Source: Glaciihabitans sp. (GTDB lineage Bacteria > Actinomycetota > Actinomycetes > Actinomycetales > Microbacteriaceae). Taken from it: a stretch of DNA of 64,000 bases. The stretch's first letter is position 1; the number at the start of each line of letters is the position of its first letter. The stretch is taken from the NCBI GenBank assembly GCA_025465535.1, contig JAODMY010000021.1:1-64000 (forward strand). Reading direction: 5' to 3'. Of the stretch, positions 8,910 to 33,354 are shown one piece after another. The notes below the pieces were generated by a model that worked only from the letters and a program-made list of their open reading frames with translations, did no database searches and had not been told where the DNA came from. The position numbers were made by a program, and so were the translations under genes.

Positions 8910-8963
8910 CGGATTCCCAATGCGCAGAGTGCATTTGCCGAAGATGACCGCGGGTTTGCGCCC

Positions 8964-9758: not shown

Positions 9759-9782
9759 GCCGACCTCCTTTGAGGTCGGCAT
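9757..9782 (-). promoter_or_regulatory. Hairpin covering the iclR ribosome binding site
   Basis: Perfect 11-bp inverted repeat (ATGCCGACCTC and its complement, 4-nt loop). In the leftward mRNA the 3' arm contains the GAGG of the Shine-Dalgarno and runs into the AUG of the IclR gene, while the 5' arm begins within the stop codon of the MHS transporter. A ribosome finishing the transporter would open it, so it may make regulator synthesis depend on transporter translation. Confidence 0.6.
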
Positions 9783-12671: not shown

Positions 12672-13408
12672 TGAGCCTCCGCGCCCTCATGGCCGAGCGT
12701 GCCGTCACTGGCACATTTCTCAAGATCCCCCGCTTCGAAGTGGTGGACATGTTGGCCCTCAGCGGCTTCGACTTCGTGGTGTGCGACTACGAGCATGCGC
12801 AGATGTCGGTGCACGACGCGTGTGACATCGTGCGGGCCGGAATTAGTCGCGGTATGCCGGTGCTGGTGCGCACGCCGACACTCGACCGCGGCGAGATAAA
12901 CAGGCTTCTGGAGGCCGGTGCGTCCGGAATCCAATTGGCTCGCGGCTCGGGAGATGCGGCCATCGAACTGCGTCAACTCATCTCTTATCCGCCCATCGGA
13001 ACCCGCTCCGTTTCGATGGCGCAAGCCGCGGCAGGCTACGGCGTCGGGGTGACGTTGACCGCGCACCTTGAGAGATCGAACTCGGAGGTGTTGGCGGTCG
13101 GACAGTACGAAACTGCCGACTTCGCTGACAACATCGAGGCGGCCATGGCTTCGCTCGACGTGGCCTTCATCGGGCCCGTCGACCTGTCAGTCGATCTGGG
13201 CACCCCGGGCGATTCCGGTTCCGAGCCGATGCTGCAGGCTGTCGCCGCAATCGAGGCTGCCGCCGGACGACACGATGTGCCGATGGGCATTTTCGCCGGT
13301 TCCGCGGAGAGCGCCGAGACTGCTCGAGCGAAGGGATACCGCTACATCGTCGTCGGCTCAGACCTGACTATGCTCTCTGCGGGTGCGGCAGCCCTGCTCG
13401 GGAGATAA
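12671..13408 (+). CDS. HpcH/HpaI-family aldolase
   Basis: Class II (metal-dependent) aldolase, 245 aa, of the 4-hydroxy-2-oxoheptanedioate/2-oxo-3-deoxysugar-acid type, releasing pyruvate or glyoxylate. Motifs: GFDFVVCDYEHAQMS with the conserved acid-His pair, VLVRTP, EAGASGIQLA, and AFIGPVDLSVDLGTPG with the metal-site region. Start overlaps the DUF6282 stop. Together they form a two-gene rightward operon facing the cupin/MHS/IclR set. Confidence 0.88.
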   Translation: MSLRALMAERAVTGTFLKIPRFEVVDMLALSGFDFVVCDYEHAQMSVHDACDIVRAGISRGMPVLVRTPTLDRGEINRLLEAGASGIQLARGSGDAAIELRQLISYPPIGTRSVSMAQAAAGYGVGVTLTAHLERSNSEVLAVGQYETADFADNIEAAMASLDVAFIGPVDLSVDLGTPGDSGSEPMLQAVAAIEAAAGRHDVPMGIFAGSAESAETARAKGYRYIVVGSDLTMLSAGAAALLGR

Positions 13409-17388: not shown

Positions 17389-18003
17389 ATGATCGATCGC
17401 CGCGTGATGTTGAAGTACAGCGGTGCCGCTGCCCTTGGAGCGCTTGCGCTGACCGCCGTGTCCTCGGAAACGGATCTCGACTTCGCAAACGCCTCCGCGC
17501 CGCCCCAGCCACTGCTGCCCGATCCGGCCACGACGCTCGTGTCCAACCCGCCCTTTCCGAAGGGGCTCACCCGCGAAGAACGTGCGCATCTCGTGACTTT
17601 CGATGAGCTGGATTTCGACGTCTTCACCCACGAAGAGTGGAACCGGCTTGGTGAGAGCCATGCCGACACCATTCGGGTCCACTGGCCCGACGGCCACTTC
17701 ACCGACGGCATCGACCAGCACATTGCCGACCTCAAGGCGCTATTCGCCTGGGCGCCGGACACTCGCATCCTTCAGCACCCAATCCGCGTCGCGAAAGGCA
17801 ATCTCACGGCGGTGACCGGCGTAATGCGCGGCACGTTCACTCGGCCGATGGCCGATGGCAAAGGCGGCTTCACTCCTCCCACCGGCAAGGCGTACGCGAT
17901 CAACATGGCGACCGTCGGCAACTGGAATCGGTCCGGCGTGATGAGCGAGGAATTCCTTTTCTGGGACAACCTCACCTTCTACCAACAGATCGGCCTGGCG
18001 TAA
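17389..18003 (+). CDS. Exported SnoaL-like (NTF2-fold) protein
   Basis: 204 aa. The first 30 residues (MIDRRVMLKYSGAAALGALA) resemble a Tat or Sec signal with a twin arginine, so the protein is probably exported. The rest has the SnoaL-like/ester-cyclase pattern: HEEWNRLGESHADTIRVHWPDG, followed by GIDQHIADLKALFAWAPDT and, near the end, the EEFLFWDN strand. Proteins of this type bind or cyclise small polyketide or aromatic molecules. AAGGAG stands upstream of the ATG. Divergent from the HxlR gene, so likely induced with it. Confidence 0.78.
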   Translation: MIDRRVMLKYSGAAALGALALTAVSSETDLDFANASAPPQPLLPDPATTLVSNPPFPKGLTREERAHLVTFDELDFDVFTHEEWNRLGESHADTIRVHWPDGHFTDGIDQHIADLKALFAWAPDTRILQHPIRVAKGNLTAVTGVMRGTFTRPMADGKGGFTPPTGKAYAINMATVGNWNRSGVMSEEFLFWDNLTFYQQIGLA

Positions 18004-18022
18004 TCGGACAGCCCTACGTCAG

Positions 18023-18108
18023 ACATGACAGTTTTCAACGCCGTCAATCAGGGGCCGCAGCTTGTTGATCAGCCAGGTTCGGTAGGAACCGGTGGGTGGG
18101 TCAGCCAT
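18023..18108 (-). CDS. Possible 28-residue ORF after the old-yellow enzyme
   Basis: ATG overlaps the 3' end of the OYE gene by 8 nt, giving a short peptide (MADPPTGSYRTWL...) that ends with TGA at 18023-18025. The overlap suggests coupling, or else this is the start of a truncated former gene. No family recognised and no ribosome site of its own is clear. Confidence 0.25.
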
Positions 18109-19219
18109 CGTTAAACGCTGACTGCTTGGCGCCTTCCTTCGGCCAATGCGTCCTTACATACTGGGGAGGCCAGTAGCTGAGCTCGACGCCCAATTCGTGA
18201 GCAGCTCGCAACGCAAAATGCGGATCCCGGCTAAACTCCCTCGCGATCATGACCGCGTCCGCTTGGTCCGCGCGAATGATGCTGTCTGCCTGGATCGGCG
18301 TGGTTATCGCACCCACCGCGCTGACTAATACGTCGGCGCGAGATTTTAGTCTCGTCGCGAGAGGGACCTGATAGCCCGGTCCGACTTGAATCGGCACGCC
18401 GGATGTAATTCCTCCGCTTGAGACATCAATTAGATCTGCGCCCGCAAGTTTCGCCCAGCCTGCGACCGTCGCCGTTTCTTCTTCGTCCCAACCACCGATG
18501 ACCCAATCGGTTGCCGATAAGCGAATGAACAGCGGGACATTCTCGCCGATCGCGGACCGCACGGCAGCAACAATTTGCAGAAGGAAACGCGCCCGGTTTT
18601 CGACCGAACCTCCGTAATCATCCACACGCGAATTCGCCAACGGAGAAAGGAATTGATGAATCAAATATCCGTGAGCTCCGTGTAGTTCAATCACATCGAA
18701 GCCAGCTCGCACCGCGCGCGTTGCCGCTGCCGCAAAGCTTTCGACCAAATCGTGGATTTCAGCGCGGCTCAAGCTCCTGGGCGTTCGGTGATCCGGATAC
18801 GGCAGCTCCGACGGAGCAACGGTCTCCCACCCCCCCTCTTCGTCACTCATCGAGCCGGTCTTGCCGCCGTAGCCCCAGTCGGGCCAGGTGGATGCTTTTC
18901 GACCAGCGTGCGCTAATTGAATTCCAACCTTCGCTCCCTGCGCGTGGAGGAACGCCGTGATCTTTGCCCATGCCGTCGCTTGTGTGTCATTCCAGATGCC
19001 CGTGTCCGCAGGAGAGATTCGCCCGTCCGGCACGATCGCGCTTGCTTCCACAACAATCAGTCCGGCGCCTCCGGCCGCCATAGCGCCAAGATGTACGAAG
19101 TGCCAGTCTCGAGGCACCCCGTCCCATTCCAGAATTGTGTATTGACACATAGGTGCCACCCACAGGCGATTCCGGATTTCCACATCGCGAAGCGTAATGG
19201 GATCGAACAGGGCGGGCAT
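18101..19219 (-). CDS. Old-yellow-enzyme family NADH:flavin oxidoreductase (YqjM-like)
   Basis: FMN-dependent ene-reductase, 372 aa, reducing C=C bonds conjugated to carbonyl or nitro groups. The thermophilic-like/YqjM subclass is indicated by the cysteine in APMCQYT near residue 25, QLAHAGRKAS, the substrate-binding pair in ELHGAHGYLIHQFLSPLAN, and the R in SVENRARFLL. GGAG precedes the ATG by 6 nt. Divergent from an MFS carrier, with two IclR-type boxes in between. It may reduce an enone or cyclohexenone intermediate of the ring-degradation route. Confidence 0.92.
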   Translation of the reverse strand: MPALFDPITLRDVEIRNRLWVAPMCQYTILEWDGVPRDWHFVHLGAMAAGGAGLIVVEASAIVPDGRISPADTGIWNDTQATAWAKITAFLHAQGAKVGIQLAHAGRKASTWPDWGYGGKTGSMSDEEGGWETVAPSELPYPDHRTPRSLSRAEIHDLVESFAAAATRAVRAGFDVIELHGAHGYLIHQFLSPLANSRVDDYGGSVENRARFLLQIVAAVRSAIGENVPLFIRLSATDWVIGGWDEEETATVAGWAKLAGADLIDVSSGGITSGVPIQVGPGYQVPLATRLKSRADVLVSAVGAITTPIQADSIIRADQADAVMIAREFSRDPHFALRAAHELGVELSYWPPQYVRTHWPKEGAKQSAFNDG

Positions 19220-19342
19220 CAGGCTCCAAGGTTTGAAGACAAGTCGGCTCGGGGTAATCCACGTGGCCTGCTTGAGCGATTCGCGCGTGAAATCTCGGCG
19301 CTATGGAGAGCGTAGAACTCGCGTGATCTCGGACAAACGGGT

Positions 19343-19359
19343 CGTTCCGCTGAGTGGGA
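19343..19359 (+). promoter_or_regulatory. IclR-type box 1
   Basis: GTTCCGC-TGA-GTGGGAA: one exact half site and a degenerate second arm. It lies 124 nt upstream of the OYE start. One of four near-identical boxes in the 19-26 kb block. Confidence 0.65.
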
Positions 19360-19368
19360 AGATCGTGC

Positions 19369-19385
19369 TGTTCCGCTGAACGGTA
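19369..19385 (+). promoter_or_regulatory. IclR-type box 2
   Basis: GTTCCGC-TGA-ACGGTAC, 26 nt (start to start) after box 1, so both face the same side of the helix within about half a turn; tandem sites like this are usual for IclR tetramers. Confidence 0.65.
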
Positions 19386-19597
19386 CGAGCCCGTTGACTC
19401 TCGACCTGCTGCCCATATGTTTGTTCCTTCAATGCGCGACGAGCCGTGAGGCACCCCGCGAAGACGACTTGAGGCAGGGTCGCCGGCAAAGTGCGCCTCG
19501 ATACGTTGCCACACGTCCGGTGGCAGGCACTTCGCTTCTCGGTCCGAAATAATTTGCCGCGCCCACCGGCGCAGGCCACTCTGACGCAGAGGTTGGT

Positions 19598-20821
19598 TTG
19601 CCGATCTTGACAGTTGTAATAGCCAGAAGACCATTCCCTACGCATGTACCCGTAGTGATTTTGGGAGCCCTCGTAGGTTTGGGCCCGTTCACGATCGATG
19701 CATATCTTCCGGCGCTACCCGAAATTGGTCGACAGTTCGACGCATCCTCGTCGGCGCTTCAACTGACGCTCTCCACAACGACACTCGGATTCGCGGTGGG
19801 GCAACTCGTAGCGGGTCCTCTCAGCGATCGATTCGGCAGAAAGCTGCCGCTGACTCTCGCGACAGCTCTTCATATTTTGTCGAGCCTGGCTATTCTCGGG
19901 TGCGACAACGTTGTGGAGCTCACTGTCGCGAGAGCCTTTCAAGGCATTGGCGCAGCAGGAGGTGCGGTCATCGCATTGGCGATAGCCCGCGACGTTTACG
20001 ATGGGCCGAGGTTGACGCGGAGCCTTGGGGCTCTGGCTCTGTTTTCCGGCTTGGCGCCGATTGTCGCGCCGATAGTCGGTAGCCAGCTCCTGACAGTGAC
20101 CAGCTGGAAGGGCGTCTTCGTTTTCCTGGCATCGCTCGGTTTCATTATTGTTTTGACAGCCGCGCTTCTGGTGCCCGAAACACATCCAAAAAGGCGTCGC
20201 GAGACGATGATCACGAACAGCTTGCGTTCTCGATACTCCACGTTGTTTCGGGACCGAGCGTATCTGGCCATCGTCTCCGTAAGTGCCCTCCAGTTCGCGG
20301 CGTTTTTCGCCTACCTCTCCGCGTCTTCGCAACTGTTTCAAAAAAATTACGGCTTTGATCCGCAGGCATTCGGACTTTTGTTTGGAATCAACGGTGTCGG
20401 CCTCGCGATTGGAGCACAACTGTCGAGTCGGTTGGCCGGGACGATGCATCCGCGTCAACTGTTGAGCCGTATTCAACCAATCCTGCTAGCCATCTCCATG
20501 GCGACGGTGGTGACTTCGGTGCTGCGGTTTCCTACCGTCTTCGTCTTGATTTCGTTCTTCTTGTTCGCATTTGGATACGGATTCGCGCTACCGTGCGTGC
20601 AATTCCTGGCACTGCAGCGGCATCCTCTCATTGCGGGAACAGCCGCATCCATATTGGGTGCGTCCAACTTCGCCTTAGGCGGCCTGGTCGCAGCGTTGGT
20701 GGGTTTGATCGGTATCTCGGGTGTGGCCGTTGGCAGTACCGAATTCGCCTTATTCTCCTTAGCGACAGCGATCTTCTGGGCTGGCTATGACCGAACTCTT
20801 TCTCGCGCCTCGAAGGGCTGA
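19598..20821 (+). CDS. MFS transporter, Bcr/CflA (DHA1) type
   Basis: 12-TM carrier, 407 aa. Bcr/CflA features: FTIDAYLPALPEIGRQF in TM1, the motif A loop GPLSDRFGRKLPL, and RAFQGIGAAGGAVIALAIARD in TM4-5. Start taken as TTG at 19598, 5 nt after AGAGG; no ATG is available before TM1. Its position across the double IclR box from the OYE suggests movement (uptake or efflux) of a pathway compound. Confidence 0.82.
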   Translation: MPILTVVIARRPFPTHVPVVILGALVGLGPFTIDAYLPALPEIGRQFDASSSALQLTLSTTTLGFAVGQLVAGPLSDRFGRKLPLTLATALHILSSLAILGCDNVVELTVARAFQGIGAAGGAVIALAIARDVYDGPRLTRSLGALALFSGLAPIVAPIVGSQLLTVTSWKGVFVFLASLGFIIVLTAALLVPETHPKRRRETMITNSLRSRYSTLFRDRAYLAIVSVSALQFAAFFAYLSASSQLFQKNYGFDPQAFGLLFGINGVGLAIGAQLSSRLAGTMHPRQLLSRIQPILLAISMATVVTSVLRFPTVFVLISFFLFAFGYGFALPCVQFLALQRHPLIAGTAASILGASNFALGGLVAALVGLIGISGVAVGSTEFALFSLATAIFWAGYDRTLSRASKG

Positions 20822-20877
20822 TTGGCACCAGGGCAGAGGTCCCCATTTGCACGTGGAACAAAGAGTGGAATCGTAGG

Positions 20878-21654
20878 TCACTGGCGAATGCTGCTGAGGG
20901 CGCCGCCGTCGGCAAGAAGAATCGACCCATTTATGTAGGAACTGGCTGGCTCGACGAGAAATCGCACGATTGCTGCAATTTCCTGCGGATCGGCGGCACT
21001 TCCTCGCACGTTGCCCATTCCGAGCTCGTCGATCTTGTCGCCCAGCATTGCTTCAGTTCCAGCGGTGCGGACCGGACCCGGTGCCACGGCGTTGACGCGC
21101 ACTCCACTGGCCCCGAACTCCATCGCCCAGGAGCGGGTTAGCAGATCCACCGCTGCCTTTGACGCGCCGTACGCCGCGCGCTCCGGAGCAGGGGAGGTGC
21201 TTGCTGACGATGAAATGGTCACAATGGCGCCGCGCCCGCGCTTCGCCATTCGCGGTGCGATGGTGGCGACCAGAAGGAATGGTGCTCGAACGTTGATGGC
21301 GAACTGCCGGTCAAAAGACGCAGCTCCCATGCTGGAAGTCGGACCAAACTCCCAAATTCCGGCAGCGCTGACGAGTATGTCGACGTCACGTGAGAGGTCG
21401 GCCAAAGCAATCGCGCCGTCAGCATCAGTAAGGTCCGAAGACACGAAGCGCGCGTCTACACCCGTCTTCTTGAGCTCATCGACCAACGCAGCGCCTCGCG
21501 CTTCGTTGCGGCCATGGACAATCATGTCGGCCCCCGCAAGCGCGAGCTCAAGAGCAACAGCACGGCCAATCCCGGAAGTTGCACCCGTGACCAGCGCGGT
21601 TTGTCCGGAAAGGTTGTGAGCACTTTCGAGGGATGCATAGGGCTGCCGCTTCAT
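20878..21654 (-). CDS. SDR-family oxidoreductase
   Basis: Classical short-chain dehydrogenase, 258 aa: TGATSGIGRAVALELA cofactor loop, SAAGIW in place of NNAG, catalytic SSSAS and YGASK, and VRVNAVAPGPV. NAD(P)H-dependent oxidation or reduction of an alcohol/ketone. ATG at 21654 preceded by GGTAGAGAG; an ATG five codons earlier is possible. Convergent with the MFS gene and 75 nt downstream of the racemase-like gene, on the same strand, so probably co-transcribed from the box-3 promoter. Confidence 0.88.
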   Translation of the reverse strand: MKRQPYASLESAHNLSGQTALVTGATSGIGRAVALELALAGADMIVHGRNEARGAALVDELKKTGVDARFVSSDLTDADGAIALADLSRDVDILVSAAGIWEFGPTSSMGAASFDRQFAINVRAPFLLVATIAPRMAKRGRGAIVTISSSASTSPAPERAAYGASKAAVDLLTRSWAMEFGASGVRVNAVAPGPVRTAGTEAMLGDKIDELGMGNVRGSAADPQEIAAIVRFLVEPASSYINGSILLADGGALSSIRQ

Positions 21655-21729
21655 TCTCTCTACCTTCATCCTGTATTCGAAAATGAACGCACATCAAGGC
21701 GGTGCGCAGTTCAGATCGTCGTGGGAACG

Positions 21730-22461
21730 TCACGTGTTCGATCGGATCGTCTCCGAAGTCGAAGGAGAAAAAGGGATGCGCGCGGCTGCAAAGGCGGCAC
21801 TCAACGAAATGGCAAACACATCGAGGACGGGGCGACCTCGTATCGCTCTGAGCTGCGCGGAGCGGACGACGAGGGCAAGAATTCCCTCGGCCGGAACGAT
21901 TACCTGTTCTAAGTCATCGTCCTGGCAAGCGTCGACAAATGCTGCGCACAGCGGCTCTGGGTCGCGTATTGCATTTGAGATATCTCTTTCATCAGCGAGA
22001 TCGAGTCGCGTGGTTCGAACGGCGCCGTCCGCGAGTCCAAGCTCAGCCAACAATGAACTCGTCATTCCCATCTGATCGGAATTGATGCTTACCAACCGCG
22101 TGCTCTTTCCCATCTGTCGAGCCGAAAGGACGACCAGCTCGGCCATGGAAAGGATTGGTATGTCGAGCTTGGATCGCGCATTGAGCAGTCCGGGTGCCAC
22201 GAACGAACCGATGACGAGAGCACCAAAACCCTCGCGTTGCGCCGTGGCGGCGTTCTCGGCAACCTGCGAAGCAACGTCGTCGTAGCACTGCGGGTCGCGA
22301 AGTGCGCGCACCGGGGGCAAGCCGCCAAATGTACCTTCGCGGAGTCCGATGATCCTGACCTCGCACTGATCCGGGGTTAGCTCGGCAAGCACTCCGCGAA
22401 GAGCTTGATGATAGAGCGGCACCTCACGGAGATCCGTAATCGACTGATACCAAATCTTCAT
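21730..22461 (-). CDS. Asp/Glu/hydantoin racemase-fold protein lacking both catalytic cysteines
   Basis: 243 aa with the layout of the aspartate/glutamate/hydantoin racemase superfamily: KIWYQSITDL start, GALVIGSFVAPGLLNARSKL mid-chain, and VIVPAEGILALVVRS near the end. In active racemases these two places normally read GCF.DPGL and GC.G, each with a cysteine; here they are serine and proline/alanine. It may be a decarboxylase- or isomerase-like relative, or a ligand binder. Chosen ATG gives the conserved N-terminus; the longer open frame crosses the box-3 operator. No strong Shine-Dalgarno. Confidence 0.7.
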   Translation of the reverse strand: MKIWYQSITDLREVPLYHQALRGVLAELTPDQCEVRIIGLREGTFGGLPPVRALRDPQCYDDVASQVAENAATAQREGFGALVIGSFVAPGLLNARSKLDIPILSMAELVVLSARQMGKSTRLVSINSDQMGMTSSLLAELGLADGAVRTTRLDLADERDISNAIRDPEPLCAAFVDACQDDDLEQVIVPAEGILALVVRSAQLRAIRGRPVLDVFAISLSAAFAAARIPFSPSTSETIRSNT

Positions 22462-22503
22462 ACAGCCGAGATTATTGCTACGGCGTGGGCCGATGTCGAC
22501 ATC

Positions 22504-22520
22504 GTTCCGCTGAGCGGTCG
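22504..22520 (+). promoter_or_regulatory. IclR-type box 3
   Basis: GTTCCGC-TGA-GCGGTCG, between the divergent racemase-like gene (43 nt) and the SDR gene (86 nt). Its second arm (GCGG) is closest to a full palindrome among the four boxes. Confidence 0.7.
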
Positions 22521-22605
22521 ACCCCGTTGACTTGTGATCGCAGCCAAGCGGATAGTCGAATCGAGCTTGTCCACAAGCCACAAGCCACAGACCGAAAGGC
22601 AGAAA

Positions 22606-23361
22606 GTGCAACCAAAATCAGTAATCGTAACCGGTGCTGGTGCAGGACTCGGGAAAGGTATCGCCGAGCGACTTGCGGCTGACGGATTCGACGTCGCAGT
22701 CACGGACATTGACGCTCAGGCCGCGGAGGGCGTCGCCGAAGATTTGCGGGCTCGAGGGTTAGGTGCGCGAGCCTACGCACTCGACGTATCGGATCCTGAG
22801 CAGGTCGATTCAGTCGTCGAGCGAGTCATTGCAAGCCAGCCGCAGCTCTACGGTCTGGTTAACAATGCGGGTATCGGTCGGGCCACCGCATTCCTTGACA
22901 TCTCAAAGAAAGATTGGGACCGCATCACGGCGGTGAACACCACAGGGCCGTTTCTCATGAGCCAGGCAGTCATCAAGGAACTGATAAAGCACCACGAAGG
23001 ATCAATCGTCAACTTGTCGTCGATCGCCGGCAAAGATGGGTTCCCCCACTGGGTGCACTATGGCGTTACCAAACACGCCGTCATCGGGCTGACTCGAGGA
23101 CTTGCACGCGAATTCGGCGGGGAGGGAATCCGAGTGAATGCCATTTGCCCCGGTGCCGTCAAGACCGCCATTTGGGGAGCAGAGGCGCAGGGGACCGACG
23201 ATCCTGACGCACTATTCGCGTCTTTGGCTAGTCGCACAGCCCTGGGGCGGGGCCAATCCGTCGAGGATATCGCCGCAGCCACCTCTTTTTTGATCGGAAA
23301 CGAAGCCATTAACATCACCGGTATCTCGCTCAGCGTTGATAGCGGATTGCTTTTTTCGTAG
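22606..23361 (+). CDS. SDR-family oxidoreductase (3-oxoacyl reductase-like)
   Basis: 251 aa, classical SDR: VTGAGAGLGKGIAERLA, NNAGIGRA, catalytic NLSSIAG plus YGVTK, VNAICPGAV. Start GTG at 22606, 7 nt after AAAGG; the frame is open further upstream, but that part overlaps the operator. First of three tightly packed rightward genes (9-nt gap to the VOC gene, then directly abutting the MBL gene). Expected to act on a hydroxyl or keto group of the pathway substrate. Confidence 0.88.
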   Translation: MQPKSVIVTGAGAGLGKGIAERLAADGFDVAVTDIDAQAAEGVAEDLRARGLGARAYALDVSDPEQVDSVVERVIASQPQLYGLVNNAGIGRATAFLDISKKDWDRITAVNTTGPFLMSQAVIKELIKHHEGSIVNLSSIAGKDGFPHWVHYGVTKHAVIGLTRGLAREFGGEGIRVNAICPGAVKTAIWGAEAQGTDDPDALFASLASRTALGRGQSVEDIAAATSFLIGNEAINITGISLSVDSGLLFS

Positions 23362-23370
23362 GAGACATCC

Positions 23371-23838
23371 ATGCCCAGTCTGCAAATCAACCATTTCGGG
23401 ATATCGGTTCGCGATATTGAACGATCGACGGAGTTCTACAAGTTGCTTGGTGCCGAAATCGCAGTCGAAACTGCACTTTTTTCGGGGCCGAAAATGGACA
23501 AGGGTCTTGGCTTGGAGGGCGTCGAACTTAAGGCGTGCATGATTTCCTTTGGCGGTTCGCTTGTGGAGCTGCTTGAGTACGTATCGCCCGTCGGAGACGA
23601 TTACGCGTCCATCAATGCCAATGTCGGTGCGCCCCATCTCGCTTTTCAGGTCGATGACATCCAGTCGCTCTATGACTCACTGTCAGATGCGGGATTCAAC
23701 TTCCTATCCGAGCCGGTCCTCATCGAAGATGGTCCGTTTGTTGGCGGCTATTTCGTGTACTCAGTCGACCCCGACGGGATTTCCGTCGAACTGATCCAGC
23801 CGGGACCCGGATTTGCGAGCGCCATAGCGAGCTTGTAA
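23371..23838 (+). CDS. VOC-superfamily protein (methylmalonyl-CoA epimerase/glyoxalase-like)
   Basis: 155 aa single vicinal-oxygen-chelate unit. Potential metal ligands: H in QINHFGISVRDIERS, E in LVELLEY, H in GAPHLAFQVDD, and E in GISVELIQPGPG near the C-terminus, giving an H-E-H-E set like epimerases and glyoxalases rather than extradiol dioxygenases. Preceded by TAGGAG. Sits between an SDR and an MBL hydrolase, so isomerisation of a keto or CoA-linked intermediate is plausible. Confidence 0.82.
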   Translation: MPSLQINHFGISVRDIERSTEFYKLLGAEIAVETALFSGPKMDKGLGLEGVELKACMISFGGSLVELLEYVSPVGDDYASINANVGAPHLAFQVDDIQSLYDSLSDAGFNFLSEPVLIEDGPFVGGYFVYSVDPDGISVELIQPGPGFASAIASL

Positions 23839-24780
23839 ATGACCGACTCGCTGGATGGGGTACGGCTGGATTACACGGCTGGCGTAATTCCGTCCGGCTA
23901 TCGGGTTTACGGAAGCGTGGCCACTCGGCGGAATTCAATTACCGTCCGCCAACTGTCTCCCCGTGTCCTTTGGGTTGATGTTTTTGGGTATCAGGCGACC
24001 GTCCTAATCGGTGCTAACTCTGCAATGCTTATCGACCCCTTAGACGACCCCCGGGCGCACGCGATCGTCGAATTGATGCGACGCGAATTCTCGGTCGAGA
24101 TCTCCTGCATTGCCTATTCCCATTGGCACGGTGACCACATACGTGGAGCAAACTCGGTTCTCGAGAGCACCCGTTGGCGCGAGCCGCTGTCAATTGTCGC
24201 CACAGAGGTTTGTGCGTCTGAAGTTCGTGTGCGCGGCATTTATCCGCTTCCCACTATCGAACTTCGGGTTGGCGACTCCTTCGATTTCGAGGGCATCGAA
24301 CTGAGGTTTTCGAACGTTGGAGGGCACACGGTCGACTCAACCTTGATCAACGTCGTCGCAGACGGTGTCGCTCATTGCGTTGACCTGGTGCATCCTCTGC
24401 AGGCTGAGTTTTTTTCGTTTGGCGCAGCTCTGGGCTTCGGAGATTACGTTCGTGCCCTGGAAAAATTGTCTGAGCAGAAATGGACGGTGCTGACGGCCGG
24501 TCACGGCGATATCGGTTGGCCATCCGACGTTCAACTCGCCCTCGAGTATTGTGCCGGGCTGAAACGCGTGACAGCGGAAGCCGTGAGGGAAGTCCAGTCT
24601 GCGCCAGAGCGTGCGACGGGCGACTCTCCGATGGCAGCAGCCGCCGACCTGCGCAAGCGGGTGATTGCCAGTGCTGTACCGAAGATCGAACGGGTATGGT
24701 CGGCGCGTCTGCCTGGACTGAAGTTCGCGGTCGAGTCACACGTCCTGTCCGTACTGGATGACATCCTCTACTTCGACTAG
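23839..24780 (+). CDS. MBL-fold metallo-hydrolase
   Basis: 313 aa, cytoplasmic zinc hydrolase. Motif HWHGDH (HxHxDH) near residue 95, GHTVDS near 158 and the metal-bridging Asp in HCVDLVHP, then TAGHGD. The C-terminal 80 residues are helical. Start codon directly follows the VOC stop with no gap, so the two are coupled. It may open a lactone or hydrolyse a thioester in the pathway; substrate not readable. Confidence 0.86.
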   Translation: MTDSLDGVRLDYTAGVIPSGYRVYGSVATRRNSITVRQLSPRVLWVDVFGYQATVLIGANSAMLIDPLDDPRAHAIVELMRREFSVEISCIAYSHWHGDHIRGANSVLESTRWREPLSIVATEVCASEVRVRGIYPLPTIELRVGDSFDFEGIELRFSNVGGHTVDSTLINVVADGVAHCVDLVHPLQAEFFSFGAALGFGDYVRALEKLSEQKWTVLTAGHGDIGWPSDVQLALEYCAGLKRVTAEAVREVQSAPERATGDSPMAAAADLRKRVIASAVPKIERVWSARLPGLKFAVESHVLSVLDDILYFD

Positions 24781-24791
24781 GCAAGCTCGTG

Positions 24792-24833
24792 ATTGGCCTG
24801 CGAAGCTACTCGCTCGCTTCCCTTGCGGCCAAT
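24792..24833. terminator. Possible hairpin between convergent genes
   Basis: ATTGGCC and GGCCAAT arms bracket a 28-nt region with an internal GAAGC/GCTTC pair, between the MBL stop and the TetR stop. No T-run; weak support. Confidence 0.4.
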
Positions 24834-24853
24834 GCGAATTTCGGGCGGGCTGG

Positions 24854-25459
24854 TCAGCTCGCGGTGAGCTCAACGGCACGAGCACATAGCAAGGAGTAGA
24901 AGCTGGACATCAACTCGCTAAATTTCGAGACTCCGAGTAGGTCGGCAATGAAGGCGCCATCGACTGCCGACAACATCGTGTCCGCAAGGTCCAGACCATG
25001 TTCAGCTGCGTTCGGCACTCCCTTGTTGCTGAGCCACGGCGTGATCGCAGAGCTGAGCCGCTCAATCGCCACCGAGCGAACGCGCAACGTTGTCTCGCGT
25101 ACCGAACCCTCTGACTCATCGAGTAGGCACAAGCTGAGATGGAGCCGAAGGAAATCTGGTCGCCGCTCGATCAAGCGTGTATTCGCATCAAACCATTGCC
25201 GGAAGCACTCGTCTGCGTCTCCGGTGAATGAACCAGGATGCGGGAGACCATCGAAAAACCGCTCCGCACCACGAGCCATCACCGCGGCGATCAAGCCGGC
25301 TTTGCTCGAAAAGTGCCAATAAATAGAACCTACCGGCAGTCCCGACGCCCGACATATGTCCGCAATCGATGTCGAGTCAATACCTTTTCGAGCCATCAAC
25401 AGTTCCGCCGCGTCGAGAATATCCTCATGCCCAGGGCTTGGTCGGCGCTTCGTCGACAT
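24854..25459 (-). CDS. TetR-family transcriptional regulator
   Basis: 201 aa. N-terminal HTH: MARKGIDSTSIADICRASGL then PVGSIYWHFSSKAGLIAAVM, classical TetR/AcrR spacing. The ligand domain is unassigned. Its ATG overlaps the stop of the upstream IclR gene by 1 nt (TGATG), so the two regulators are made together, an unusual coupling that suggests layered control of the catabolic block. Confidence 0.9.
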   Translation of the reverse strand: MSTKRRPSPGHEDILDAAELLMARKGIDSTSIADICRASGLPVGSIYWHFSSKAGLIAAVMARGAERFFDGLPHPGSFTGDADECFRQWFDANTRLIERRPDFLRLHLSLCLLDESEGSVRETTLRVRSVAIERLSSAITPWLSNKGVPNAAEHGLDLADTMLSAVDGAFIADLLGVSKFSELMSSFYSLLCARAVELTAS

Positions 25460-26262
25460 CAGACTGCTTTCCGTAGTTGAGGTTGTGCGCTGGAACGGAT
25501 GCGCCGGTTCATGTCGCCGCTTATGCTGGTGCAGGTCTCCCGCAGGGCCGCGATAGCTCGTTTCTCGAGGACAGCAGACCTCGGGAAAGATATGGATACG
25601 GCTGCAATCGCCTCACCCATGAGCAGTATCGGGTGCGCGATGCATCTGACTGCCGTCGCGGCCTCACAGTCATCGAACGCCAAACCGACCTTTCGAACCT
25701 GTTCAAGGCACCGTACGAGTTCGGATGGAGATGTGATTGTTCTCGAAGTGATCGGATCGAGGGGCCCGTCCAGGACGCGTTGAAGATCTGGGATGGGCAA
25801 ATAAGCAAGCATCGCCTTACCCACTCCGGTCGCATGGGCCGAGAATGAACCGCCAACGGTAGTCGGGATGTCAGCACCGTGAATATTGGCGATTTTCTCA
25901 AGGTAGACGACTCGGTCATTTCTCATCGTTGCCAGGTGAAGCGTGTGCCCGGTGTGCCTCTGGAGCTCGATAAGCCTCTGCAAAGCGACGCCCCTGAGCA
26001 CCATCTCGGGGACGACTGACGACAGAACGAACATGTGGATTCCGATTCGGTACATGTCTCCATCGCGCTCGACCGCCCCCAATTCCAACATTTGCTGGAG
26101 CACGCGGTGAACTGTGGTTTTGGGTAATCCTGTGTCACGACTTATTTCAGCCAAGCTCAGCGGCCTACCACTTTCGCCTACCACGTTTAGCACTTGAAAT
26201 GCTCGATTGAGAACGCTGATTGCAGGCCCGGAGTCCGCCTGCGGCGTTTTGATCGTCATCAT
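25459..26262 (-). CDS. IclR-family transcriptional regulator
   Basis: 267 aa. Winged helix: LSLAEISRDTGLPKTTVHRV, then the effector domain with HLATMRNDRVVYLEKI, ATGVGKAMLAYLP and AVRCIAHPI. Divergent from the ABC importer/meta-cleavage operon, and the only IclR gene inside the block that carries the four GTTCCGC boxes, so it is the best candidate for their regulator. AAAGG lies somewhat far (about 12 nt) upstream of the ATG; the next codon is also ATG. Confidence 0.9.
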   Translation of the reverse strand: MMTIKTPQADSGPAISVLNRAFQVLNVVGESGRPLSLAEISRDTGLPKTTVHRVLQQMLELGAVERDGDMYRIGIHMFVLSSVVPEMVLRGVALQRLIELQRHTGHTLHLATMRNDRVVYLEKIANIHGADIPTTVGGSFSAHATGVGKAMLAYLPIPDLQRVLDGPLDPITSRTITSPSELVRCLEQVRKVGLAFDDCEAATAVRCIAHPILLMGEAIAAVSISFPRSAVLEKRAIAALRETCTSISGDMNRRIRSSAQPQLRKAV

Positions 26263-26315
26263 TGACGTCTTTGCCTTTCATTCCATCGCCCGAACGGCAC
26301 CTTGCCTAGAGTGAT

Positions 26316-26327
26316 CGTTCCAGAACG
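26316..26327. promoter_or_regulatory. Palindrome upstream of the iclR gene
   Basis: CGTTC-CA-GAACG, perfect, with a further GAAC directly after it. It stands 54 nt before the IclR start; possible autoregulatory site with a half site (GTTC) like that of the other boxes. Confidence 0.5.
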
Positions 26328-26383
26328 AACACTCTAGCGTTTTTTTGTCATTTATGCACGCTTATGAACTTGACATGCTGGCC

Positions 26384-26400
26384 AATCCACTCAGCGGAAC
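26384..26400 (-). promoter_or_regulatory. IclR-type box 4
   Basis: On the minus strand: GTTCCGC-TGA-GTGGATT. It overlaps the region just after a TTGACA hexamer and lies 209 nt before the binding-protein start, so it may act in activation or repression of the rightward operon. Confidence 0.65.
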
Positions 26401-26608
26401 AGATCGTTTTGCAGAGGGAAAGGCAGTCCTACTATCTGAGCTACGCGGCAACACATAGCCGAGGCAAGAAGGCGATTCGAACAAGAAATTGTTGGTCGCG
26501 GTCCCGACTCATCCACGTCGCTCAAGGAATGCACACAAAAGTCGTCCCGTTCGCGGGCCGCAAAAAATCGCGATAGTCAGTATTCGCAATGAGCAAGGAG
26601 GCTCACTC

Positions 26609-27667
26609 ATGTCACAACTACTGGCCACCAGGACGTCGAAGCGCTTGCGCAGGTACACAACAGTTGGATCGATTGCTTCGGTTATCGCCGTCTCGGTTCT
26701 CCTCGTATCCTGCTCGAGCACGGGCTCCTCTTCAACCAGCACATCTGCGCCGATCAACGACTCAGCAAAAGGGGTTTCGATAGTGGTTGTCGCTGGCACG
26801 TCGAGCGACCCTTTTATGTCGTCGGTGAAGCACGGCGTCGACGCGGCTGCCTTAGCGGTAAAGGCCGCCGGTGGCTCGGTGACCTACCTCACGCTGCAGA
26901 ACTACCAAAACCTTGGCCCGGATACCGCCAAACTCGCGCAGACTGCTCTCAACCTGCATCCGACCGCGATTGTCGTCCCGGATTTTGTTCCTTCCGCGGA
27001 GGATCCCACTCTCAAGAGCATCGTCAAGGCTGGAATAACTCTTGTGCTTTACAACTCAGGAAGTGAAGCCGAAGCGCAGAAATTGGGCGCATTGACTTAT
27101 ATCGCGTCGGACTACGAGGCCAGCGGGGTAGCCGCCGGCAAGGAGCTCCTGGCGGCGGGTGCCAAAGATGTCGTCTTCGTTGACACCATCCCCGGCAATC
27201 CGTCGGCGGACGCGATGAACAACGGGTACAAGAGCGCTGTGACATCTGGCGGAGGGAAATTTCGCGAGCTGACGCTGCCTGCGACCAGTTTTCAAAATAC
27301 AACCGCCGTAACTCAGGCCATCAAGTCCGAGCTGATCAATAGCCCGTCGATTGATGCAATCGCCACCTGGGCAACGCCCGACGACGACAGTGCAGCTGCC
27401 GCGATTAGTCAGAACAATGCAACTGGGAAGGTGAAACTGGTCGGCTTCGGACTTTCCACGAACGCGCTTTCGCGCATCAAGGCGGGAACGCAGCTTGCTG
27501 CGACCGACCAGCAGCCATATGCGCAGGGTTACTACGCGGTTTCGGCAGCGTTCCAGTACGCCGCATACGGTATCGCCCTTCCCACCAAGCTGCTTACCGG
27601 TCCTCTGGTCGTCGACTCAAAGAACGTGGTGCAGGCGATCCATGGAACAAGTTTGGGAGTTCGCTAA
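26609..27667 (+). CDS. Substrate-binding lipoprotein of a ribose-type ABC importer
   Basis: 352 aa. Signal peptide with lipobox (LLVSC, Cys near residue 35) followed by a Ser/Thr-rich linker, then a type-I periplasmic-binding fold: VVAGTSSDPFMSSVKHGVDA, VTYLTLQNYQ, TAIVVPDFVP. Such proteins (peripl_BP_4-like) often bind sugars, but several serve aromatic or other small molecules, and the context here favours a catabolic substrate. AAGGAGG is 6 nt before the ATG. First gene of a nine-gene rightward unit. Confidence 0.86.
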   Translation: MSQLLATRTSKRLRRYTTVGSIASVIAVSVLLVSCSSTGSSSTSTSAPINDSAKGVSIVVVAGTSSDPFMSSVKHGVDAAALAVKAAGGSVTYLTLQNYQNLGPDTAKLAQTALNLHPTAIVVPDFVPSAEDPTLKSIVKAGITLVLYNSGSEAEAQKLGALTYIASDYEASGVAAGKELLAAGAKDVVFVDTIPGNPSADAMNNGYKSAVTSGGGKFRELTLPATSFQNTTAVTQAIKSELINSPSIDAIATWATPDDDSAAAAISQNNATGKVKLVGFGLSTNALSRIKAGTQLAATDQQPYAQGYYAVSAAFQYAAYGIALPTKLLTGPLVVDSKNVVQAIHGTSLGVR

Positions 27668-27745
27668 ATCGAAGGGTCCTGGCCGGGGCGATGTGCTTCG
27701 GCCAGGCGCTTCATTACCGCTTCGCAGTATTACCTGGAGAATCAG

Positions 27746-28867
27746 ATGCAAACAAGACTGAATGTCGCTTCCACCGGTGTTAGGACCAGCCCAAAGTTAG
27801 TGGCGCAGCCTGCAACGGTGCACGAGCCCAGACAGACGTTTCGGCGTCTTTCGCGCAGATCAGAGATGGGCGCCCTCGTCGGCGCAGTAGTCGTTTTCGT
27901 ATTTTTTGCCGTCCTCGGCGGCAGCAAGTTCTTGTCGGTGGGAGGGTTTGCCGGCTGGACTAACGTCGCCGCGGAACTAGGCGTCGTTGCTGTGCCTGTG
28001 GGGCTTTTGATGATCGCGGGCGAACTGGATCTGTCTGTCGGATCTGTCATCGCAGCGAGCTCCATGACGCTCGCCATCGCCTCCGGCTATTGGCAACTGC
28101 CCTACCCGGTCGGCATTTTGTTGGCGCTCGCGGTGGGCGCGATCGTGGGCCTCATCAACGGAATCATCACTACTAGAACCAACGTTCCTTCGTTCGTTGT
28201 CACATTGGGGACACAGTTCGGAATGGCGGGACTGACTCTCGGATTGTCTCGCGCACTCACCGGAAGCACCAACGTTTCCGTGACCCCGGATCCCGTTTCC
28301 AAGTCGATCGTCGGCACCCTAATCGCCGGCCAATTCGAAACCTCCATTCTTTGGTGCATCGGCCTCGCTCTGCTCGTCGGGTGGGTTTTGCACGTCAGTC
28401 CCTGGGGGAACTGGATTTTCGCGATCGGCGGGGATAAGGAAAGCGCGCGAGCAGCGGACATCCCGGTGGCCAGGACCAAGGTCGTCCTGTTCGTATGCAG
28501 TGGTTTGGGCGCGGCGTTGGTCGGAGTTATACAAACCTCCCTGTACAACGGCGCCCAAACTGCGATTGGGCAGTCATTTGTCTTCAACTCGATCATCGCC
28601 GTGGTCATCGGTGGAGTCCTCCTCACCGGCGGATACGGATCTGTGATCGGGGTGATCCTCGGAACGATCACCTTTGCCGTGGTGACACAGGGGATCTATT
28701 ACACAGGGTGGAGTTCGGACTGGGGCAGCCTCATTCTGGGAATCCTCCTTCTTGTGGCTGTACTTCTGAACAACACTTTTCGACGGCTCGCTCTCGCGAC
28801 CAAACGGCAGAGATCGGTCGGCTCTAGGAAGGATCGAAATGGCAACGCCACTACTCGAACTGAGTAA
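27746..28867 (+). CDS. ABC importer permease (RbsC/BPD_transp_2 type)
   Basis: 373 aa, 8-10 hydrophobic segments. Family marks: GLLMIAGELDLSVGSVIAAS and the cytoplasmic-loop region AIGGDKESARAADIPV, as in RbsC/XylH permeases. It is the only permease in the unit, so the pore is probably a homodimer. GGAG lies 7 nt before the ATG. It overlaps the ATPase gene by 29 nt in another frame. Confidence 0.9.
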   Translation: MQTRLNVASTGVRTSPKLVAQPATVHEPRQTFRRLSRRSEMGALVGAVVVFVFFAVLGGSKFLSVGGFAGWTNVAAELGVVAVPVGLLMIAGELDLSVGSVIAASSMTLAIASGYWQLPYPVGILLALAVGAIVGLINGIITTRTNVPSFVVTLGTQFGMAGLTLGLSRALTGSTNVSVTPDPVSKSIVGTLIAGQFETSILWCIGLALLVGWVLHVSPWGNWIFAIGGDKESARAADIPVARTKVVLFVCSGLGAALVGVIQTSLYNGAQTAIGQSFVFNSIIAVVIGGVLLTGGYGSVIGVILGTITFAVVTQGIYYTGWSSDWGSLILGILLLVAVLLNNTFRRLALATKRQRSVGSRKDRNGNATTRTE

Positions 28868-29642
28868 CGTTTCAAAGTCGTTCGCGGGTTCGGATGCTCT
28901 CAAGGACATCTCGTTGGAAGTCGAGCCAGGACAGGTTCTCTGTCTGCTCGGGGACAATGGCGCAGGAAAATCGACCCTGATCAAGATTCTTTCCGGCGTC
29001 CATCGCCCGACCGGCGGGGAAGTGCGAGTCAGCGGAACCCCCGTAAACTTCGGCAGCCCGAAAGATGCCAGTGTGCTTGGCATTGCCACTGTTCATCAAT
29101 TCGGAGGGTCGTTTCCATTGATGACGGTTGAGCGCTCATTTTTCGTTGGTAGAGAGCCAACAAAGGGATGGGGCGTGTTTCGAATATTCGACAAGAAGAC
29201 GGCCGCAGCCATCTCAGTGAGCGCAGTGCAACGGCTGGGAATCACAAGGATCACGCGTGGAGACCAGATCGTGGGCAGTCTCTCAGGAGGCGAACGTCAA
29301 GCCTTGGTAATTGCCAGGGCGGTGCATTTTGGCGCAAAAGTCTTGATTTTGGACGAACCTACGGCGGCCCTCGGCGTAAAAGAGGCCACGCACGTGCTGC
29401 GAATCATCATGCAGGCGCGGGCGGCGGGAGTTGCCGTCGTCTTCGTAACTCACAATGTGTTGCACGCCATGACAGTGGGAGACCGGTTCGCGGTGCTGAT
29501 CCACGGAAGGAAAGTGGACGATTTCCGAAAAGGCGAACGGAGTCGCGCCGAGATTACGGATCTGATGGCCGGTGGCGAAGCGATGGCTGAGCTTGAATCG
29601 GAGCTCGCACAGTACGAGCTTGATGCAGGTGAATCTCGATGA
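28839..29642 (+). CDS. ABC importer ATPase, single-domain
   Basis: 267 aa. Walker A GDNGAGKST near residue 38, signature LSGGERQ near 148, Walker B VLILDEP near 168, switch His in VTHN. Ribose-type ATPases usually carry two tandem domains in about 500 aa; this one has a single domain like FrcA, so it should act as a homodimer. The Q-loop reads VHQFGG. Overlaps the permease end and shares ATGA with the hydratase downstream. Confidence 0.92.
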   Translation: MATPLLELSNVSKSFAGSDALKDISLEVEPGQVLCLLGDNGAGKSTLIKILSGVHRPTGGEVRVSGTPVNFGSPKDASVLGIATVHQFGGSFPLMTVERSFFVGREPTKGWGVFRIFDKKTAAAISVSAVQRLGITRITRGDQIVGSLSGGERQALVIARAVHFGAKVLILDEPTAALGVKEATHVLRIIMQARAAGVAVVFVTHNVLHAMTVGDRFAVLIHGRKVDDFRKGERSRAEITDLMAGGEAMAELESELAQYELDAGESR

Positions 29643-30439
29643 CCGCAACTCAGATCGAAATTTCCGCGGCCGCCGATCGACTTTTTGCGGCTCAGGCTAG
29701 TGCCGTCGCAATTCCGCCCGTGACTCTCGACCTCGGAAACGAATTGTCGACTGCGTACGCCGTGCAGGAGGAGCTCATCAGGCGTCGAGTTCGCGGTGGC
29801 GTTCGACGCATTGGGCGAAAGGTTGGGCTGACTGCTCCAGCGGTTCAGACCCAGCTGGGCGTGGACCAGCCAGACTTCGGCGTGCTGCTGAGCGACATGA
29901 TCCTTACGGAGGACGACTCAATTCCGTGGGACTCGCTCATCTCCCCTCGAATTGAGGCGGAGATCGCCTTTGTCATGAACAGGGACGTGACAGACACCAG
30001 GGGTGACAGCATCCTGGACGCTGTGGCATACGTCACGCCCGCGTTCGAAATCGTAGACAGCCGAATCGTTGATTGGAAGATTGGGATCGTTGACACGATC
30101 GCTGACAACGCGTCGAGCGCGTATTTCGTTCTCGGACAGGAACGAGCGCGACTTCAGGATTATGCGCCAATCGACGCGCGAATGGCTCTCGAAGAGAACG
30201 GTGACGAAGTGTCAAGGGGGTCGGGTGCGGACTGCCTTGGCGATCCGATCAATGCATTGCGGTGGGTCGCCGAGACCGCGGCCGCGCTCGGTCGGCCGCT
30301 GATGGCGGGCGAAGTCGTCCTGTCGGGCGCGCTGGGACCGATGGTGCCACTGAGCCCGGGGTCGAGCTATCACGCTGAGATCAGCGGGTTGGGCTCGGTC
30401 TCCGTGACTTCTTCAGCAAGCGAAAGGAGCGGTGAATGA
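29639..30439 (+). CDS. mhpD: 2-oxopent-4-enoate hydratase
   Basis: 266 aa, FAH-related hydratase adding water to 2-hydroxypenta-2,4-dienoate to give 4-hydroxy-2-oxovalerate. Signatures: [31 protein letters not shown], and the metal-binding [11 protein letters not shown]; the C-terminal part has [16 protein letters not shown]. Start shares ATGA with the ABC ATPase, placing uptake and breakdown in one transcript. The 4-oxalocrotonate decarboxylase relative is less likely because the next genes are the standard aldolase and acetaldehyde dehydrogenase. Confidence 0.88.
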
Positions 30440-31365
30440 AAGCGAAGGTGGCCATCATCGGGTCCGGCAACATCGGCACTGATCTCATGTTCAAGGTAAT
30501 CCGACTTTCCGACGTCCTCGAGATGGGGGTGATGGTAGGGATTGATCCTGAGTCGGACGGCCTGGCGCGAGCGAACCGACTTGGCTTCGCCAGCACGTCG
30601 GAGGGCGTGGAGGGTTTGATTGCCATGCCCGAATTCAAAGACATCGAAGTCATCTTCGATGCGACAAGCGCGGGCGCCCACATCCACAATGCTGGGGTGC
30701 TCTCCCCTTTTGGAAAGCGATTGGTCGACCTCACCCCGGCCGCACTGGGACCGTTCGTCGTTCCCGCGGTGAACATGGACGCCTATCTCGATTCACCGGA
30801 CGTAAACATGGTGACTTGCGGCGGCCAGGCAACGATTCCGATCGTCGCGGCGATCAGTGACGTCATGCCTGTTCACTACGCCGAGATCGTCGCGTCCATC
30901 GCGTCAAAATCGGCGGGACCTGGCACTCGCGCGAACATCGACGAGTTCACCGAGACGACATCTCGGGCGATCGAGGAGGTTGGTCGAGCTGTGCGGGGGA
31001 AAGCGATCATCGTGCTGAACCCCGCGGAGCCACCCATGATCATGCGCGACACGATCTTGGCGTTAATCGACCGTGCTGACGTAGAGACCCGCGCTCGCAT
31101 AGTCGAATCGATTAGTGAACGCGTTGCGACAGTGTCCGAATACGTGCCCGGGTACAGCCTCAAGCAGGATGTCCAGTTCACGGATGAAAACGACTCGGTC
31201 GCATCACTCGCGGGGGCCAGCGGACCGTTCACACGCGTTTCAGTCTTCGTGGAAGTAAAAGGTGCCGCTCACTATCTGCCGGAATACGCCGGCAATCTCG
31301 ACATAATGACCAGCGCTGCGATGCGGGTGGCTGAGCGTCTCGTTTTAGAAAGGACCAGCGCATGA
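30436..31365 (+). CDS. mhpF: Acetaldehyde dehydrogenase (acetylating)
   Basis: 309 aa, NAD- and CoA-dependent, converting acetaldehyde to acetyl-CoA. Nucleotide-binding start [19 protein letters not shown], catalytic cysteine in [12 protein letters not shown] near residue 130, and the [11 protein letters not shown]-like stretch ([18 protein letters not shown]). ATGA overlaps on both sides with the hydratase and aldolase. It forms a channelling complex with the aldolase in known systems (DmpFG, MhpEF). Confidence 0.95.
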
Positions 31366-32408
31366 GCGACAGCCAGACTGAAATCTATCTTCAAGACGTC
31401 ACCCTTCGGGATGGCATGCATGCCCTCCGCCACCAGATGTCTCTCAAAGATGTGATTGCTATTGCCGGTGCGCTCGACTCGGCCGGCGTCGATGCAATTG
31501 AGATTGCGCATGGCGATGGCCTTGGTGGCAGTTCGCTCACTTATGGGCCCGGCAGTCAGTCCGACGACGCGTGGATCGAGGCCGCAGCCTCTGCGGTAAA
31601 GAGTGCGAAGCTCACCACGCTGGTTCTTCCGGGAATTGCGACTCTCCCTGATCTGAAGAGAGCCTACAAATTGGGCGTGCGATCGGTGCGAGTGGCCACC
31701 CACTGCACAGAAGCCGACGTCTCGGCGCAGCACATTTCGGCGGCGCGTGAATTGGGCATGGACGTCTCAGGTTTTCTCATGATGGCGCACCTGGCGGAAC
31801 CAACTGTCCTGGCAGAGCAAGCCAAGCTCATGGAGAGCTACGGGGCGAATTGCGTTTACGTGACAGATTCCGGAGGCCGTCTCACCATGAATGGGGTGCG
31901 CGAGCGCGTCATCGCATATCGCGACACGCTGGATTCCGACACTCAGATCGGCATTCATGCCCACGAAAATCTTTCGCTGTCCGTTGCTAACGCTGTTGCG
32001 GCGGTAGAAGCCGGCGCCTACCGCGTCGATGCGTCTCTCGCTGGCCAGGGCGCTGGCGCCGGCAACACCCCAATCGAGCCATTCGTTGCCGTGGCGAACC
32101 TTCTTGGATGGGCGCATCACGCCGACCTGTTCGCGTTACAGGATGCTGCGGATGATTTGGTTCGGCCGCTGCGGGATCGACCAGTTCAAGTCGACCGAGA
32201 GACGTTGACCCTCGGATTTGCGGGTGTCTACTCCAGCTTCCTGCGCCATGCCGAACGTGCGTCTGCGCTATACGGCATCGACACGCGCGAGATTCTGGTT
32301 GAGGTCGGACGCCGGCAACTCATCGGAGGCCAGGAAGACATGATCGTGGACGTTGCACTTGACCTTGTCCGTATTCGTGAAACAGCCGACAGCCAGCTGT
32401 CGGCGTAG
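31362..32408 (+). CDS. mhpE: 4-hydroxy-2-oxovalerate aldolase
   Basis: 348 aa, class II pyruvate aldolase splitting 4-hydroxy-2-oxovalerate into pyruvate and acetaldehyde. TIM-barrel signature [16 protein letters not shown] near the N-terminus, the metal-binding [20 protein letters not shown], and the [19 protein letters not shown] block. C-terminal communication domain present. Overlaps the acetaldehyde dehydrogenase by ATGA, consistent with a bifunctional complex. Confidence 0.95.
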
Positions 32409-32454
32409 TGCCCAGCGGCCCGCTGCCGATTGACAAAACGTAAGGAGGAGACGC

Positions 32455-33327: not shown

Positions 33328-33354
33328 TACGAGAGCTGAACAAAGGAGAAAAGA

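Follow-up and report, generated by a model that had tools for sequence, protein, structure and literature searches.

A pair of cysteines is the textbook hallmark of the PF01177 fold. One gene of this fold in the window (the whole 64,000-nucleotide stretch of Glaciihabitans DNA analyzed here) raises the question of what such a protein does when both cysteines have been replaced.

21730 to 22461, minus strand: P0001, a PF01177 protein of 243 amino acids, Ser86/Glu192 type (ORF, Pfam, AlphaFold model, structure comparison, tree)

The ATG-start open reading frame runs exactly from 22461 to 21730 and its product begins MKIWYQS. The ORF listing also offers an upstream TTG start that gives a 293-amino-acid frame; the ATG is favored because the MKIWYQS N-terminus is conserved, and no clear ribosome-binding site was seen before it. 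PF01177 was the sole Pfam family matched (42.3 bits against a curated cut-off of 31), and P0001 had no match in NCBIfam or in the phage collection. All 52 members of set A5 match PF01177 at E <= 0.001. An AlphaFold model, built from an input alignment of 52 sequences (P0001 and 51 from the loci of the pattern scan), had a mean pLDDT of 92.9 and a pTM of 0.90 and gave 109 PDB matches at E <= 0.001 in Foldseek. Allantoin racemases ranked first in both Foldseek and VIA-align. KpAllR (3QVJ/3QVK, the latter at E 4.6e-11) and Pseudomonas fluorescens AllR (5LFD; Z 23.8, rmsd 2.7 over 224 residues) lie at Z 23.2 to 23.8 and are also the nearest PDB sequences; no PDB sequence closer to the branch of P0001 than KpAllR was found. 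OpaE followed at Z 21.4. The initial annotation had proposed hydantoin racemase, arylmalonate decarboxylase (AMDase) and maleate isomerase for comparison, and on the predicted model these reached Z 21.0, 16.5 (3ixl) and 16.0 (4fq7), respectively, with allantoin racemase nearer than any of them and aspartate or glutamate racemases at 17.6 and below. By its profile match and its predicted two-lobed racemase fold, P0001 is a member of the Asp/Glu racemase superfamily.

The catalytic positions were located with two alignments, one of the clan profile to KpAllR and one, by hhalign, of the clan to ten canonical two-cysteine sequences (probability 99.95). Around the first site VIGSFVAPGL of P0001 falls without gaps on VIACFGDPGL of KpAllR, and around the second QVIVPAEGIL falls on DVVVLGCAGM, so that Ser86 (GSF) corresponds to Cys79 and Glu192 (VPAEG) to Cys184 of KpAllR.

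22204 to 22206, minus strand: Ser86 codon, aligned with KpAllR Cys79 (clan-profile alignment to KpAllR, hhalign)
21886 to 21888, minus strand: Glu192 codon, aligned with KpAllR Cys184 (clan-profile alignment to KpAllR, ungapped comparison, hhalign)

Both alignments confirm the initial annotation in its claim that the two usual cysteine positions, in GSF and VPAEG, are changed. It was right that VPAEG lacks a cysteine there but overlooked that the glutamate of this motif itself occupies the second cysteine position, where it could act as a general base or acid. Each of the two residues comes after a strand in the P0001 model, Ser86 after strand 81-84 and Glu192 after 187-190. We consider it very probable that the substitutions are real and selected.

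Cysteines are present in P0001 at positions 33, 59, 172 and 179. Those at 33, 59 and 172 are unique to P0001 among the 95 sequences compared. Column 179 holds cysteine in 33 of the 95 and alanine in 55; within the 22 Ser/Glu sequences the cysteine occurs in two, P0001 and the protein from L051. The L051 protein, encoded in a different metagenome-assembled genome of the Microbacteriaceae, is the nearest relative of P0001, at 48% identity, and shares its Ser/Glu pair. In the model Cys179 lies at the end of helix 169-178, apart from the strand ends bearing the catalytic positions, and Cys59 lies at the start of helix 57-76 behind a loop that may be near the pocket in relatives. These cysteines were rejected as stand-ins on conservation. 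Other cysteines in the active site would have spoken against the initial annotation; going by alignment, conservation and secondary structure, no conserved cysteine of P0001 takes over catalysis. Column 115 is cysteine in 20 of the 22 Ser/Glu sequences and in 75 of all 95 and is arginine in P0001 and L051, which means that findings on these two may not extend to the whole Ser/Glu clade.

Relatives were collected by scanning genome_contigs (one genome per species, 84,980 species) with patterns that include neither catalytic position, which yielded 70 loci. The 95 compared sequences consist of 92 of the 95 frames from loci, P0001, and two more frames, one of L125 and one of L126, the last trimmed to 255 residues; relatives from plasmids are included, and the Cys/Asp copy of L118, which is split into two pieces in different frames, and the partial L119 were left out. 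The second catalytic cysteine is absent from 94 of the 95 sequences of this IW(Y/H)QS branch. At positions 86 and 192 the pairs are Cys/Asp (30), Ser/Glu (22), Thr/Glu (22) and His/Gly (10), and more rarely Cys/Pro (5), Cys/Glu (4), Cys/Cys (1) and Ala/Glu (1). No sequence lacks an ionisable residue at both positions. After thinning to below 88% identity (65 sequences), the residue is non-ionisable at 86 in 26 and at 192 in 13, and at both in none.

A maximum-likelihood tree of 75 sequences was built from the alignment minus its catalytic columns; on it, each of the six multi-member pair types requires a single change. The Ser/Glu group is defined by the pair itself, and in this tree, which is independent of those columns, it forms one clade (12 of the 75, support 99/96). 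Thr/Glu has support 90/68, and the grouping of P0001 with L051 has 100/100. Removal of eight long rows gives 98/95 for Ser/Glu, 100/98 for Thr/Glu and 94/81 for Cys/Glu. Each pair type arose perhaps once, and the complementarity of positions 86 and 192, though clear, rests on about seven changes. All 22 Ser/Glu sequences, which come from Actinomycetota, Alpha- and Betaproteobacteria, share Trp4, Gln6, Tyr17, Ser86, Arg96, Glu108, Pro190, Glu192, Gly193 and Asp214. Arg96, Glu108 and Asp214 are also usual in the canonical sequences (8, 9 and 8 of the 10), while the canonical N-terminal asparagine (9 of 10) is Ser7 in P0001.

The branch is without a functional NCBIfam name: 2 of 52 members weakly match a "hypothetical protein" model and the others match nothing at E <= 0.001. 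Where annotated, its genes are mostly called "aspartate/glutamate racemase family protein". Neither a characterized member nor a Cys-to-Glu change at these PF01177 positions was found in the open literature, with subscription journals mostly outside the search, and neither appears in the accessible portions of PMC12661438, PMC4996985, PMC10156859, PMC12838360, PMC8142540 and PMC12393405 (LarA). The pairs of the branch (Glu or Asp with Ser, Thr or Cys, and the His/Gly clade) offer a natural series leading from a two-base racemase to a one-base enzyme, and relatives with the Ser/Glu swap probably carry out a different proton-moving reaction from the racemases. We regard it as evenly balanced whether the Ser/Glu members, P0001 included, are carboxylate-based enzymes with a reaction new for this fold. 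Branch members sit in catabolic clusters with Old-Yellow-Enzyme (OYE), MmgE/PrpD, tricarballylate-dehydrogenase-like or meta-cleavage genes, and testing a few of them would therefore give functions to vaguely named genes.

Several other members of the branch deserve mention. The single Cys/Cys sequence (HCF...PGCG) is from Bacillus timonensis (L113, 7998-8747) and may represent a step on the way from the canonical racemases to the altered dyads. Two paralogues, Cys/Asp and Thr/Glu, occur together in L066, L088, L089, L091, L093, L095, L099, L100, L101, L111 and L118. Many of these loci also have tricarballylate-dehydrogenase-like and TctC-like genes, and a two-step use of the same fold is possible. 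The His/Gly clade, with motifs such as GHFQDP...PAGG and a single histidine at the first site, is found in L019, L022, L024, L102, L104, L105, L106, L108, L116 and L126, with AMP-ligase-like genes nearby in L019, L104 and L126.

The surroundings of P0001, a cluster of genes for degrading aromatic compounds, bear on the pathway in which it may act. The following genes lie around it in the window:

18101 to 19219, minus strand: OYE-family flavoprotein (family also in 17 of the 21 other Ser/Glu loci)
20878 to 21669, minus strand: SDR oxidoreductase, 60 bp downstream of P0001 on the same strand (ORF listing, Pfam)
22534 to 23361, plus strand: second SDR oxidoreductase, divergent, 72 bp from the P0001 gene, exact start uncertain (ORF listing, Pfam)
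23371 to 23838, plus strand: VOC-fold protein, 64% identical to its L051 relative (Pfam, similarity to L051)
23839 to 24780, plus strand: metallo-beta-lactamase-fold hydrolase (Pfam)
25459 to 26262, minus strand: IclR regulator, 64% identical to that of L051 (Pfam, similarity to L051)
29639 to 30439, plus strand: 2-oxopent-4-enoate hydratase-like protein of the FAA_hydrolase family, 57% identical to that of L051 (Pfam, similarity)
30436 to 31365, plus strand: acetaldehyde dehydrogenase (acetylating)-like protein, 71% identical to its L051 relative (similarity to annotated genes)
31362 to 32408, plus strand: 4-hydroxy-2-oxovalerate aldolase (HMGL and DmpG communication domain), 76% identical to its L051 relative (Pfam, similarity)
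32455 to 33327, plus strand: meta-cleavage-product C-C hydrolase-like protein, 77% identical to its L051 relative (family match, similarity)
33355 to 34371, plus strand: extradiol (catechol 2,3-) dioxygenase-like protein, 81% identical to that of L051 (family match, similarity)

The SDR gene at 20878 to 21669 is a possible operon partner of P0001. The gene set shared with L051 is 57 to 81% identical, and its order differs between the two, which speaks for retention as a set; in L051 the VOC gene directly follows the racemase-like one. Core meta-cleavage genes are also present in two alphaproteobacterial plasmid clusters, whose dioxygenases are 79% and 70% identical to that of the window. No relative of P0001 was detected in these two clusters by tblastn (best E 0.065 over 52 residues) or with the clan profile (no match at E <= 1, with the positive controls L051 and L125 found), and neither plasmid was among the 18 records retrieved in the search for relatives. 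A role as a core meta-cleavage step was therefore rejected, and the role of P0001 is probably peripheral to that pathway.

OYE-family genes occur in 18 of the 22 Ser/Glu loci, counting the window, which was given 26 kb where most other loci had 15 to 17 kb. The corresponding counts are 3 of 25 for Cys/Asp, 3 of 19 for Thr/Glu, 0 of 8 for His/Gly, 1 of 5 for Cys/Pro, 1 of 4 for Cys/Glu and 0 of 1 for Cys/Cys. Fifteen of the 18 share one alphaproteobacterial gene set and are thus not independent, and no OYE gene was found in the 15 kb of L051. An isomerase bringing a C=C bond into conjugation would suit an ene-reductase, and the frequent OYE neighbors are consistent with a double-bond shift, short of proof. 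MmgE/PrpD-family genes are likewise found in 18 of the 22 Ser/Glu loci, and some proteins of this family are decarboxylases. None was detected in the stretch of the window from 11 to 37 kb or in L051, and the two copies in the P0001 genome are on other contigs; a conserved MmgE/PrpD partnership for P0001 is thus unsupported.

Judged by its aligned catalytic residues, P0001 is not an allantoin or hydantoin racemase, an AMDase, a maleate isomerase or a one-thiol racemase. The initial annotation's precedent of cysteine-poor decarboxylases and isomerases was imprecise: AMDase retains one cysteine and maleate isomerase both, so that neither enzyme exemplifies a cysteine-free member. Although it shares the fold, maleate cis-trans isomerase works by cysteine chemistry (a succinylcysteine intermediate, by the title of 2xed), whereas P0001 has no cysteine at the catalytic positions. 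AMDase also shares the fold and has a single acid at a catalytic position, but this is its one retained cysteine, Cys188, opposite Gly74 (PMC4996985, as far as accessible). OpaE requires both Cys90 and Cys199, and its Cys-to-Ser variants keep 4.8% activity at the first site and 0.3% or less at the second (accessible part of PMC12661438).

Our tentative reading is that P0001 is a one-base, cofactor-free proton-transfer enzyme acting through Glu192, most likely as an isomerase or tautomerase, and that the catabolic step it performs is a peripheral one. The two-lobed fold would be retained and the two-thiol dyad exchanged for Ser86 and Glu192. Glu192 would deprotonate an acidified C-H in a small acid or ketone. 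Backbone NH groups flanking the two catalytic positions would bind the enolate, in line with descriptions of KpAllR and OpaE; in OpaE the substrate oxygen is bound by main-chain nitrogens of the residues that adjoin the cysteines (PMC12661438, same portion). The same glutamate would then return the proton on the same face to another atom, giving a double-bond shift or keto-enol isomerisation, with Ser86 serving in hydrogen bonding only. P0001 would serve a peripheral branch feeding the adjacent meta-cleavage pathway rather than the core of that pathway. The predicted fold, the two replacements with their conservation, and the gene context are what the analysis shows; what Glu192 does, that a single base is used, which class of reaction results and that P0001 acts peripherally are inferences from them. 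A one-base isomerase or tautomerase is favored since the second site is a carboxylate and carboxylates act as bases elsewhere, as do the two glutamates of methylmalonyl-CoA epimerase on an activated C-H (PMC8142540, accessible part). Against this reading, P0001 has a long branch in the tree (1.28 changes per column) and differs from the branch at 5 of 21 conserved columns.

The same long branch and departures, the loss of both thiols and the occurrence of a single close relative (L051) among 398 family genomes searched could instead point to a non-catalytic binding or regulatory protein, or to a decayed racemase. We think this distinctly improbable. The 21 columns are conserved across 90% or more of the remaining 93 sequences; P0001 keeps 16 of them, L051 18 and both 15, while outside them the two proteins are identical at 98 of 220 positions. 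Five motif stretches are identical at 38 of 44 positions against 75 of 197 elsewhere, but they were chosen after viewing the alignment, and the count over the 21 columns is the one relied on here. The retention of those columns, together with the same pair and the same meta-cleavage gene set in L051, argues against decay, as does the presence of Ser86 and Glu192 in all 22 clade sequences, from Actinomycetota and from Alpha- and Betaproteobacteria. Least probable of all is covalent catalysis, in which P0001 would be a hydrolase or lyase whose nucleophile is Ser86 and whose general base is Glu192. To our knowledge covalent serine chemistry is not known in this fold, and sister clades have Thr, His, Ala or Cys at the first position; the covalent intermediate of the maleate isomerase thiol (2xed) is what suggests that serine could act likewise.

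A unidirectional epimerase or racemase, in which Glu192 accepts a proton and another is donated on the opposite face by Ser86 or water, is rather unlikely but has more in its favor. Allantoin racemase is the nearest fold, and EcL-DER (Thr83/Cys197) and RacX (Ala79/Cys193) racemise amino acids with one thiol (accessible parts of PMC12661438 and PMC12838360), so that losing one base alone does not forbid epimerisation. The initial annotation had called a two-base racemase mechanism impossible as usually drawn; usual two-thiol chemistry indeed cannot work in P0001, but the statement was too strong. These two enzymes resemble P0001 in having the first cysteine replaced and differ in keeping the second, where P0001 has Glu192. 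The VOC neighbor at 23371 matches methylmalonyl-CoA epimerase weakly, at 37.3 bits, far below the cut-off of 114.95. Against an epimerase stand the low activities of the OpaE serine variants, the inactivity on Asp and Glu of PH1733, which has Ala at the first position (PMC12838360, accessible part), and the expected weakness of a carboxylate as a base for an amino-acid or hydantoin C-H. An AMDase-like decarboxylase, in which loss of CO2 would give an enolate protonated from one side by Glu192, seems unlikely. The single acid of AMDase, its fold score and the MmgE/PrpD genes of the Ser/Glu loci favor it, while the distribution of those genes around P0001 and L051 does not. A further point that may count against it concerns the dioxyanion hole of AMDase (Thr75, Ser76, Tyr126, Gly189): by position only, Phe87 and Val88 follow Ser86 instead of Thr-Ser, and Gly193 follows Glu192. 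The new isomerisation or decarboxylation suggested by the initial annotation is thus a fair guess, between whose two halves the context does not settle, and its interpretation is partly supported overall.

Some further features of these genomes were observed. G+C content in 2-kb steps is 0.565 to 0.597 in the window from 18000 to 34000 against 0.603 to 0.694 in the remainder, which gives the catabolic cluster the look of an acquired island; its end is close to genes for a GH6 glycosidase (34625-35935) and for an acetyl xylan esterase (36220-37128). At 11742-13408 a DUF6282 gene adjoins an HpcH/HpaI aldolase gene, and both families are also found in L075, L077 and L081, close to racemase-like genes of the Cys/Glu type; no mention of DUF6282 was found in the open literature. 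L051 has at 7712-11255 a gene of the luciferase-like monooxygenase type, with weak similarity to window positions 50560-51564 and 5024-6079, and what we take to be an amidase-like gene, which may hint at a nitrogen-containing substrate. The P0001 genome has a second PF01177 gene on contig C24 (L003 1402-2163, also L132), presumably maleate-isomerase/EutA-like. GAS is the apparent reading at its first site, and roughly 3.4 kb separate its match from one to MmgE/PrpD.
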